Positions 43,575-48,504 of a stretch of 64,000 nucleotides of DNA are shown here, piece by piece. The DNA lies in NCBI RefSeq assembly GCF_900166585.1, contig NZ_FVZC01000009.1, forward strand, positions 2,429,444 to 2,493,443, in the 5' to 3' direction. This DNA comes from Mesobacillus jeotgali. Its GTDB lineage: Bacteria; Bacillota; Bacilli; Bacillales; Cytobacillaceae. Below the pieces are notes generated by a model. That model saw nothing but the letters and a program-made list of their open reading frames with translations. It made no database searches and was not told the origin of the DNA. Position 1 is the stretch's first letter; the number at the start of each line of letters is the position of its first letter. Both the position numbers and the translations under genes were made by a program.

Positions 43575-44108
43575 TTACATCAACTGCATTGTGGTAATGC
43601 AGGTATTATCATTTTTAAAAGTGGAGATTTCCGCTTCTGCTTTTTTTCCGTTATGTTCGATCAAAACGGTATACTTTTGATCTCTAGGAAGCCACAGGTC
43701 GATAAATCCATTGGCCTGTGATTTTATTTTCTCATCGACAATCACTTTGCCATCCATATCCTCAATATAAACATCAAACTCTTCCTCAACCATCTCACCT
43801 TGACAACCTGTCAAGCTATGATTCGTTCAAGGATGGGTTTCATTTTCATAAGGAGCGATCGAGACAAAGAAATCTTCACCAGATAGATCGTAGACTTTCT
43901 TTTCTCCTTCACTGTCGGCGACCATCAGTTCATGTGAGGTGATGGAGGCATTGTCGCCCTTGATCTTGCCCGAGCTGTAATCACTCACCAATTCCTTGAT
44001 GTTTTGCTGTTGTTTTTCAGGTTCTGCCGTTTTTTCGCCGCTATTGCACCCAGCCAGTAAACCGGCAGCCAATAAGGCCATTCCGAGGAGTTTAAATTTC
44101 AACCCCAT
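43575..44108 (-). CDS. cueP: CueP-family copper-binding lipoprotein with in-frame TGA, probable selenoprotein
   Basis: 178 codons including the stop; 177 residues if the TGA at 43829-43827 is decoded. A lipobox (LLAGC, Cys about 21) anchors the protein outside the membrane. The sequence is CueP throughout: ASITSHELMVADSEG, DFFVSIAPYENETHP, then TGA, then TNHSLTGCQGEMVEEEFDVY, ANGFIDLWLPRD and NDNTCITTMQL. The TGA is residue 94 and takes the place of Cys in HPC; the next Cys are 8 and 76 positions on, the same spacing as Salmonella Cys96, Cys104 and Cys172 (from memory). Downstream there is no other stop or frameshift. A GGU-loop hairpin follows the TGA. Alternatives are a recent nonsense mutation or a sequencing error. 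The start has AAGGAGGTG. Confidence 0.8.
43799..43829 (-). other. Putative bacterial SECIS element after the cueP TGA
   Basis: Minus strand: TGA (43829-43827), 12 bases, then C-TTGACA, loop GGT (43808-43806), TGTCAA-G. The stem is 7 bp and perfect, and weaker pairs continue below a G-G mismatch. The GGT is the 7th codon after TGA, exactly as in E. coli fdhF, and the loop G-U is the SelB-contacting feature. The encoded LTGCQ is probably conserved in CueP, so part of the pairing may be forced by protein sequence. Confidence 0.68.
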
Positions 44109-44128
44109 TCACCTCCTTGTCTTTCAAA

Positions 44129-44155: not shown

Positions 44156-44173
44156 CTATCATAGAGTGAAAAT

Positions 44174-44203
44174 ATGCATTTTTTATCGAGAAAAAATGCA
44201 TAA
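44174..44203. repeat. Perfect 12-bp inverted repeat upstream of cueP
   Basis: TATGCATTTTTT, ATCGAG loop, AAAAAATGCATA. It sits between the MFS gene terminator and the cueP promoter. It may be an operator or a structured RNA end; nothing further can be assigned. Confidence 0.6.
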
Positions 44204-45947: not shown

Positions 45948-47381
45948 CTATTTTTTCGGAGCTGGCTGTTGTGCCGGGAAGTAACTGTTGACTGCTTTGT
46001 CTTTCTTCTTGAAGTTATCTTTTTCGTCGTAAACAGCCTTCTTCACTTTTTCAATCTCCGTTTTGACTTCTTCCAGGTTTACACCTTTCTTGGTCAGTTC
46101 TTCGATGGCAATATTGATTGCTGCGTTCGATTCTTCAATGGAAACCCTCAATGAATCCATAGCTCCCTGCGGATTATGGAATCCTGCCGAACTTTCAGCC
46201 GCTACGATATCCCAGAACCATTGTCCTTTTCTGATATGCTCCTGAGCCTGCTTGATTTTTTCTTCGCTTACTCCTGATGTGATCATTTTATTCACATAAT
46301 AGTGTGAGGTAATTGAAATATCCTCAGCCTTATGAAGGGCTTCCATATGTGTATCCTGGATACCGATTACACGTTCTTTCAGCTCTTCCATATCCCTGTT
46401 GGTATGGCAGGTTGCGCATGATTGATCCATAGTCTTCAGTGGCGATGTCCACCAGTGTGAGCTGATTTTCTTTTTGCCGTCTACCCTGTCATATGGCATG
46501 TGACAGTCTGCACATGTGACGCCAGCTTCGCCATGCGGACCTTCGATATGGGTCTCAAAATCAGGGTGCTGGGATTTTAGCATTGGCGTTCCCGAGATAT
46601 TGTGCACCCAGTCCTTCTCGAAGCCTTTTTCTTTGGCGGTAGTTTCATAGTATTCATACATGTCTTCCGGCTTGAAGCCATTTGCCCAAGGAAAAGTAAC
46701 TTCCCCGTTATCAGCTGCAAAATAGTATTCTACGTGACACTGCCCGCAGACGTAGTTCCTCATGTCATTTTTCGTTGGGTTGGACATGTCGATGCCCTGA
46801 GATTCCATAGCTTTGATGAAGCTAGGTCGGGTGACGCGCAAATCCATGGTCTGCGGGTCGTGGCAGTCTGAACAGCCGATTGGTGAGTGTCCCATTGCTT
46901 CTGCTTTCGGCCAGATGTCTTTGTTAAAATTGCCGCTCCAGTAGTCATCGCCCATTTCCTCAATCATATGGGGAACAGCAGTCGATTTACATGTCAGACA
47001 TGAACCGATTGACTTGTCTGTAATACGAGCAATTGCCCGGATATCCTCATTTGCATAGATATGGCCGCGGTCCTCGTTATACTCTGTGGCAAACCCGTAG
47101 CCGTTAAAAAGAACAGGCAAATACGGTTCCTTATCATGGTCAAACTTGCTTCGTTTGACGGAACCGCTGTATTTGGTGTCCTCCATTTTTTCATTTTGTT
47201 TATAGCTGTCATATTGAAGCGGGAAAAGATCCTTGAATGCCTCATTGCTGATTTCATCTTTGCTTAGCCCCGTTTTCAGCTCACTGGCTGAAGTTGCTTT
47301 TTCATCTGAACTGGAGCAGCCTGTTATGATGAGCATGACAGCCGCAAGGAGCAAATAGGCCCAGCGGAAATTTCTAGCCAT
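45948..47381 (-). CDS. nrfA: Ammonia-forming cytochrome c nitrite reductase NrfA
   Basis: A 477-residue pentaheme nitrite reductase reducing nitrite to ammonium outside the membrane. Five heme sites are visible: the catalytic CLTCK (CxxCK, about 124-128), then CSDCH, CGQCH, CADCH and CATCH. A lipobox (LIITGC, Cys 22) indicates a lipoprotein anchor as usual in Gram-positives. Catalytic Tyr/His regions (HIEGPHGEAGVTCADCHMPY) are intact. It overlaps nrfH by 8 bases and is the last gene of the operon. Confidence 0.96.
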   Translation of the reverse strand: MARNFRWAYLLLAAVMLIITGCSSSDEKATSASELKTGLSKDEISNEAFKDLFPLQYDSYKQNEKMEDTKYSGSVKRSKFDHDKEPYLPVLFNGYGFATEYNEDRGHIYANEDIRAIARITDKSIGSCLTCKSTAVPHMIEEMGDDYWSGNFNKDIWPKAEAMGHSPIGCSDCHDPQTMDLRVTRPSFIKAMESQGIDMSNPTKNDMRNYVCGQCHVEYYFAADNGEVTFPWANGFKPEDMYEYYETTAKEKGFEKDWVHNISGTPMLKSQHPDFETHIEGPHGEAGVTCADCHMPYDRVDGKKKISSHWWTSPLKTMDQSCATCHTNRDMEELKERVIGIQDTHMEALHKAEDISITSHYYVNKMITSGVSEEKIKQAQEHIRKGQWFWDIVAAESSAGFHNPQGAMDSLRVSIEESNAAINIAIEELTKKGVNLEEVKTEIEKVKKAVYDEKDNFKKKDKAVNSYFPAQQPAPKK

Positions 47382-47898
47382 TGTTCATCGTACCTCCTTT
47401 TTTCTCTAAAAGCTCGCCTGGTTTAGGCGGTTTAAAATAATCCTCTGTCTTGAAGCCTTTGCCATGCGGCACTGCCTGGTGACAGCTTGAACAGCTGTCT
47501 TTTGCATCATGCGATACATTATCCAGTGTGTTTTCATGGCAGCTGATGCAGTTTCCATTTATGACTTCGTCAGAGCTTCCTGTTGCATGGAGCACCTTGG
47601 GTATTTTTGCTTCCCCCAGTGTATTGAAATACACATGCGTCATGCCTGCTTTTGCCTTATAGGTATATTTTTTGACCATATTCTCGTGCGGCAAATGGCA
47701 ATCCCCGCAGGCCAGGCCGGCGTGATTGGAATCAGAAAATGAGTCATGGACTTCTGTCATGATGTGGCAGCTTGAACAAAACTCCGGTGAATCCGTATAA
47801 GCCAGCGTCTTGACAGTCACGACAGAAACAATGATTCCAGCAAAAACACCAATGAATAACAGCATCTTCTTGTCTATCCCCAACAGCTTTTTCAGCAT
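47374..47898 (-). CDS. nrfH: Cytochrome c nitrite reductase small subunit NrfH
   Basis: A 174-residue tetraheme NapC/NirT-type quinol dehydrogenase that feeds electrons to NrfA. One N-terminal membrane helix (MLLFIGVFAGIIVSVVTVKTL) is followed by four CxxCH motifs: CSSCH, CGDCH, CISCH, CSSCH. The start chosen (MLKKLLG) has AAGGTGA 7 bases upstream; an upstream in-frame codon at 47925 is possible. Its end overlaps nrfA by 8 bases. Confidence 0.94.
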   Translation of the reverse strand: MLKKLLGIDKKMLLFIGVFAGIIVSVVTVKTLAYTDSPEFCSSCHIMTEVHDSFSDSNHAGLACGDCHLPHENMVKKYTYKAKAGMTHVYFNTLGEAKIPKVLHATGSSDEVINGNCISCHENTLDNVSHDAKDSCSSCHQAVPHGKGFKTEDYFKPPKPGELLEKKGGTMNNG

Positions 47899-47988
47899 CT
47901 TTTTCACCTTTTTCACCTCCCTCATCGCAATCTACTAAAGGCTGCTGCAAAACAGTCTTATTAAAACACAATAGTGCTTTAACCAAGG

Positions 47989-48504
47989 TCAAGGTGATGT
48001 TTTTTCCTGGATGATCGCTATTAAATCATCCTTCGTTGTGGGGCCGGAGAAGCGTTCAACTATGATTCCGTTTCCGTCGACGATGATGGTCTCAGGCTGA
48101 CCGATCACGTTGTATTCTTTTGATATCTCTTCTTTTGTATCCAGTAAATAAGTAAGCTTTGAGCCGCTTTCGCCAATGTATTTTTCCATCCGTCTTTTCG
48201 ATTCGCCTTTGGCAAGGATCAATAGCTTTGCATCCTTATACTCTTTGCCGAATGCTTCAAGTTCAGGCGCTTCTTCAATGCATGGCGCACACCAGGTTGC
48301 GAAAAAATTCAGGACCACCGGCTGGCCTTTAAAATCGGAAAGCTTATAGGTGTTGCCATCGATATCCTGAAGCTCAAAATCGATGGCCTGGTCACCAGCC
48401 TGTGCGGATGTCTTCCCGCCCAGACCGCTGACCAAAAAGCCTAGGAGTCCCAGAACGGCAGCGATCACGATAACCGGAACAATTTTTTTGAGCATCTTCA
48501 TCAC
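47989..48504 (-). CDS. CcmG/ResA-type thiol-disulfide oxidoreductase
   Basis: A 171-residue membrane-anchored thioredoxin-fold protein. An N-terminal helix (about 5-27) precedes an extracytoplasmic domain with ATWCAPC (active CxxC near residues 70-75) and [11 protein letters not shown] after the cis-Pro. In this operon it should reduce the heme-binding cysteines of apocytochromes NrfH and NrfA (the CcmG/ResA step). It follows ccmD. Confidence 0.88.

Follow-up and report, generated by a model that had tools for sequence, protein, structure and literature searches.

In the present analysis, a cueP gene was characterized in a stretch of 64,000 nucleotides (nt) of Mesobacillus jeotgali (assembly GCF_900166585.1, contig NZ_FVZC01000009.1, positions 2,429,444 to 2,493,443), hereafter the window, whose coordinates are used throughout. 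On sequence evidence, this cueP very probably encodes a selenoprotein and with it defines a new selenoprotein family. The gene is located on the minus strand (43575..44102) and encodes a protein of the CueP family whose N terminus is lipobox-like; it has 175 amino acids from a likely TTG start or 177 amino acids from an ATG. The minus-strand frame 43575-44108 has a single interruption, one TGA at codon 94 counted from the ATG (43827..43829), at which selenocysteine (Sec) is almost certainly inserted.

With cysteine written in place of Sec, the read-through product scored 152.9 bits against PF21172 (cut-off 27) and 187.8 bits against NF038094 (cut-off 60); the two halves scored apart gave 28.9 and 94.3 bits with the first model and 45.4 and 113.4 bits with the second. 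The TGA takes the place of the cysteine in a THPC motif, with Cys102 (codon TGT, 43803..43805, minus strand) and Cys170 (codon TGC, 43599..43601, minus strand) located 8 and 76 codons downstream, and in an alignment with 4gqz (entry numbering 19-179) the three positions fall on Cys96, Cys104 and Cys172 of Salmonella CueP. A first-pass annotation of this DNA had described exactly this, a lone TGA at the HPC cysteine of an otherwise intact CueP frame with the cysteine spacing of Salmonella; the frame reading and the read-through scores confirm the intact frame, and the 4gqz alignment agrees with the spacing. The protein thus shows what is expected of the CueP family, namely a profile score over the cut-off, three conserved cysteines (one of them as Sec) with a histidine cluster, and the CueP fold. 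Compared with CueP of Salmonella, a periplasmic copper protein (PF21172, NF038094/NF038095; 4GQZ), Sec replaces Cys96, the N terminus is lipobox-like as judged by eye, and the score of 148.4 bits against NF038095, the exception model for Salmonella-type CueP, is below the cut-off of 195, which places the protein outside that model.

The strongest evidence for a selenoprotein is a candidate selenocysteine insertion sequence (SECIS) hairpin after the UGA, a feature absent from the first-pass annotation. This hairpin, CUUGAC-AGGUU-GUCAAG (43799..43815, minus strand), starts 11 nt past the UGA and includes the codon of Cys102. Taking the U of UGA as 1, it extends over nt 15-31, with nt 15-20 pairing with nt 26-31 around the loop A21-G22-G23-U24-U25 (apex AGGUU, 43805-43809). 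The six pairs and AGGUU are complete in 122 of 122 TGA genes, one locus of short flank (L224) being excluded from this count; among the 72 Cys genes, 14 form all six pairs and 14 have AGGUU in place. After deduplication to 74 TGA genes (72 distinct), 432 of 432 cells were paired. Pair 16-30 is UA in 62 genes and CG in 10 and never in a mixed state, having changed six times among TGA genes on the gene tree, and pair 19-27 is AU in 69, GC in 2 and GU in 1. None of 500 shuffles matched the observed paired cells, double-change cells or covariation score.

Since the residues HSLTGCQ encoded here are largely common to the TGA and Cys forms, their silent positions serve as a control. Ser98 is encoded by AGC in 48/48 TGA genes versus 31/52 Cys genes, Thr100 by ACA in 71/71 versus 23/58, and Gly101 by GGT in 74/74 versus 21/58. 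Codon diversity at codons 104-108 is about equal in the two forms, and at codons 91-93 and 97 it is somewhat lower in TGA genes. The hairpin has the AGGU at nt 21-24 from the UGA and the U at nt 17 in common with the SECIS of Escherichia coli fdhF, but its stem consists of six unbroken pairs without the bulged U. It also falls within the bacterial SECIS (bSECIS) model as given in the legend to Fig. 2 of PMC13188914 (loop of 3-9 nt, stem of 4-16 bp, spacing of 16-37 nt, a G at loop position 1 or 2 and a minimum free energy of at most -7.5 kcal/mol): it can be drawn as an AGGUU loop on a 6-bp stem or, in the energy fold, as a GGU loop on 7 bp, with a spacing of 17 or 18 nt and energies from -8.8 (36 nt) to -13.4 kcal/mol (48 nt).

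The pattern extends far beyond one gene, which supports the selenoprotein reading already put forward in the first-pass annotation. Within the genus of the window genome, an in-frame TGA was present in cueP of all 21 genomes searched, one copy (genome G001) being additionally broken further downstream. A family sample yielded CueP matches in 106 of 193 genomes (two of them sub-cutoff fragments), 87 with and 17 without the TGA; an order sample yielded matches in 88 of 397 genomes, 76 of them new beyond the family set (29 with TGA, 45 without, and 2 broken copies with TGA), and a phylum sample contributed Cys forms only. The codon at the site, read in 206 loci including repeats, was TGA in 128, TGT in 54, TGC in 23 and TAC in 1. 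Removing repeats left 195 loci, 123 TGA and 72 Cys; this count leaves out L039, the second piece of L038, and the loci of a named scan, of which L040-L042 are repeats of genomes already counted and L043-L048 (5 Cys, 1 TGA) were dropped without a repeat check. TGA-bearing cueP genes occur in 119 genomes and span 26 genera in 13 families plus three genera of a family in another order (f206), altogether 29 genera and 14 families, and the alignment of homologues, a check suggested beforehand, places TGA and Cys at the same site through many genera.

Cys102, the C-terminal cysteine (one tail Cys codon in every gene), His92 and His97 are invariant in 194 of 194 genes, TGA and Cys forms alike. Therefore, among the conserved cysteines only this site is ever TGA, apart from a degraded copy (L218). 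Additional stops in codons 68-169 were found in 1 of 122 TGA genes (L223), a count that does not include the G001 copy. The median ratio of nonsynonymous to synonymous substitution rates (dN/dS) within the genus is 0.098 downstream of the hairpin and 0.043 upstream of the TGA. Judging from these values, the frame past the TGA is kept by purifying selection. The broken copies L038, L039 and L218 were excluded from the residue count, the stop and dN/dS analyses and the tree.

A cell that reads UGA as Sec needs the corresponding machinery, and the sel genes that the first-pass annotation had proposed to look for are all in the genome. The assembly, 4.63 Mb in 9 contigs and 100% complete, contains a selenocysteine tRNA (tRNA-Sec, the selC product; 56.1 bits, over the gathering score, with ARAGORN in agreement), selA (560 bits), a full-length selB (364 bits) and selD (399 bits). 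The selD gene (L225; C9:1349298-1350224 of this assembly) is itself of the Sec type, its motif STKAGUG containing an in-frame TGA that is followed by a hairpin of seven pairs with AGGUU at the apex, as in cueP.

Among 178 genomes, 114 had the TGA form and selA, 2 the TGA form without selA, 25 the Cys form and selA, and 37 the Cys form without selA (Fisher p 3e-19, a value inflated by the relatedness among genomes). Two genomes with sub-cutoff fragments (G140, G141) and two with broken copies (G350, G537) were excluded from this comparison, two genomes carrying both forms (G065, G224) were entered as TGA, and G138 was entered as Cys although its match begins past the site; minus G138, selA is present in 24 of 61 Cys genomes. 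Both TGA genomes without selA are incomplete (G179, 81%; G183, 80%), yet tRNA-Sec is present in each. All 16 TGA genomes examined for tRNA-Sec, out of 119, scored over the cut-off; among the 62 Cys genomes 25 did so, and these are exactly the 25 with selA. At the level of gene content, these genomes show the TGA form occurring only with the Sec trait.

The gene tree (194 genes) requires 23 switches between TGA and Cys, at least 4 of them forced by well-supported branches, many forks being unresolved. The complete hairpin with AGGUU is retained in three Cys genes (L056, L059 and L200). One of these, L200, groups with two TGA genes in a well-supported clade, and no selA and no tRNA-Sec over the cut-off was found in its genome (G520), a pattern as expected for a Sec-to-Cys change upon loss of the Sec trait. 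Genome G350, without selA, carries a Cys copy (L192) and the degraded second copy L218, in which TAC stands in place of the Sec codon and TGA in place of the Cys102 codon. More than one cueP per genome was also seen elsewhere: G182 has three TGA copies (L066, L118, L127), and G065 (L124, L160) and G224 (L196, L079) have one TGA and one Cys copy each.

We propose that SelB with Sec-tRNA(Sec) would bind the AGGUU hairpin and that Sec would be placed at the UGA, which would yield a full-length extracytoplasmic lipoprotein and not a 93-residue fragment missing most of the copper site. The lipobox-like LAGC, recognized by eye in the N terminus, would anchor CueP outside the membrane, and the selenolate of Sec94 would form a copper site with Cys102, Cys170 and His92/His97. 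That these five residues take up copper, with electrons for the step from Cu(II) to Cu(I) likely provided through a re-reducible Sec94-Cys102 selenenylsulfide, seems to us about evenly balanced between right and wrong. Reduction of Cu(II) and holding of Cu(I) by the Sec94-Cys102 pair is favoured because the Cys/His cluster of CueP is described as its copper site in section 6.6 of a review (PMC7558416), because a passage in PMC8966772 ascribes a putative Cu2+ reductase activity to CueP, and because, according to a passage in PMC13201067, the C104S variant of Salmonella loses cueP-conferred copper resistance.

Re-reduction of the selenenylsulfide by a DsbD/CcdA-like membrane thiol transporter is proposed on the basis of gene order at one locus (L117, genome G027), where a TGA-type cueP is preceded by an Lgt gene and followed by a DsbD/CcdA-like transmembrane gene, with matches also in L118 (G182); the arrangement suggests a cassette of lipoprotein and thiol reduction. 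Compared with the Cys form, the Sec site would be faster, more easily re-reduced and less prone to over-oxidation. In the widest form of this proposal, CueP would be a lipoprotein that defends against copper, depends on selenium and carries a selenolate at the copper site; it would occur in more than 100 Bacillota species, seemingly annotated as cut at the UGA, and the repeated Sec/Cys switches with SECIS relics in Cys genes would link selenium supply to copper tolerance; we give this picture an even chance.

The alternative that survives best accepts the insertion of Sec but has it scavenge peroxides or radicals in general at the cell surface, copper being bound only incidentally. Radical scavenging by Salmonella CueP has been proposed, and we consider such a role possible but unlikely, since both forms keep, without exception, the Cys and His residues that align with the copper cluster and the C104S phenotype of Salmonella concerns copper resistance. 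Much less probable is a selenium-free decoding, in which a different tRNA, or simple readthrough, would place Cys or Trp at the UGA. All non-TGA homologues read, the degraded L218 aside, have Cys at the site, so Cys would be tolerated; nevertheless, the TGA forms track the Sec trait, the hairpin would be superfluous, and a selD of the Sec type indicates that this cell can decode UGA as Sec.

Termination at the UGA followed by a restart at the TTG codon of Leu99, giving two polypeptides, is highly improbable. This TTG lies 12 nt past the UGA in 110 of 122 TGA genes (64 of 74 deduplicated), but the remaining 10 of 74 carry CTG, each with a matching CAG partner, as would be expected of base pairing but not of a start codon; CTG with CAA is seen in L245 alone, which is not in the 74-gene set. 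Moreover, in 120 of 122 genes the 20 nt before the Leu99 codon lack a Shine-Dalgarno-like five-mer, the second polypeptide would have no export signal, and the tie to selA would be left unexplained. A nonsense mutation (pseudogene) or sequencing error is just as hard to sustain: TGA is one base change away from TGC and TGT, and degraded copies do exist (L218 in the selA-less G350; L223 and the G001 copy, both with further stops), but a TGA at the same codon in 29 genera, a low dN/dS after it and a frozen, covarying hairpin argue against chance, as the first-pass annotation had supposed.

Several observations weigh against the selenoprotein reading or the copper mechanism built on it. Using well-supported branches, and with phylum-sample genomes excluded, there are only 4 independent TGA/Cys pairs, with which a sign test cannot reach significance; none of the 4 contradicts the link between TGA and selA. 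Two weak measures of covariation were equalled or exceeded by shuffles (pairs with a double change, 37 of 500; pair types, 412 of 500), 5.5% of synonymous draws of the window gene fold as low as the gene itself, so that its energy is no outlier, and pair 16-30 is mismatched (C-A) in L245, a gene from another order. The frame of L223 is broken by further stops although its genome has selA and tRNA-Sec. For the copper mechanism, binding and reduction of copper by these Bacillota proteins are assumed from Salmonella, only 4 of 206 loci have a DsbD/CcdA-like gene near cueP, and none of the six neighbours of cueP scanned in the window is a copper gene.

No earlier report of a selenocysteine CueP was found in the literature searched, in line with the first-pass annotation, which knew of none. 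CueP is absent from Table 1 of a 2026 review that covers 119 selenoprotein families and subfamilies (PMC13188914), and the only match of a literature search for CueP with selenocysteine was off-topic (hydroxyapatites). It was also not among the selenoproteins in the papers listed by wider searches, with Haft and Gwadz 2023 and Haft and Tolstoy 2025, both cited in that Table 1, outside their scope, and neither of the two CueP models returned from NCBIfam 20.0 is described as a selenoprotein. In a search of protein sets, the best 120 of 1213 matches reached at most 71% identity, and the six read from these 120 all have Cys at the site. As the nearest DNA relatives (L040, L041) reach 77-78%, full-length TGA forms seem to be absent from the protein sets searched, and the TGA genes of cueP seem to be annotated short in databases.

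Like FdhA, SelD and other bacterial selenoproteins with a SECIS, CueP has a UGA, a hairpin directly behind it whose first two loop positions include a G, and the SelA/SelB/SelD/tRNA-Sec machinery; unlike them, it has the motif HPU-x7-C instead of CxxU or UxxC, in a CueP fold. Predicted selenoproteins in Table 1 of PMC13188914 likewise combine Sec with metal handling, namely CopZ-like (2Fe-2S) proteins, the SO_0444 Cu/Zn efflux transporter, a mercuric transport protein and MbdU, but the domain models and motifs listed there for them are others, and none is CueP. In Bacillales, a table-level count of a 2006 survey gives 3 selenoproteins in 3 families (PMC1794560), and CueP would add a common family where few are known. 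Selenium at an extracytoplasmic copper site would be a directly testable use of Sec, and the repeated switches with SECIS relics make a good case for studying its gain and loss.

Translation of cueP more likely starts at the TTG 44100-44102 than at the ATG 44106-44108, because the spacing from the Shine-Dalgarno sequence AAGGAGG (44112..44118, minus strand; similar in aligned genomes of the genus) fits the TTG better and because L018, L025 and L037 have an ATG at the same place; with this start, Sec would be residue 92. On the strand of cueP, upstream of it (45948-48504), lie genes for cytochrome c552 and a NapC/NirT-type cytochrome (PF02335, PF03264) and an AhpC/TSA-type thioredoxin-like gene. 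A palindrome, TATGCATTTTTTCTCGATAAAAAATGCATA, at 44173-44202 between a major facilitator superfamily gene and cueP is a possible operator; the pattern at its core recurs at cueP in 16 of the 21 genus genomes and, apart from the repeats L040 and L041, in none of the loci fetched from outside the genus. The deposited name of L040 (JAGGQZ010000022.1), Chryseobacterium sp. ISL-80, looks wrong, as L040 seems to repeat G012, a genome from the genus of the window genome.
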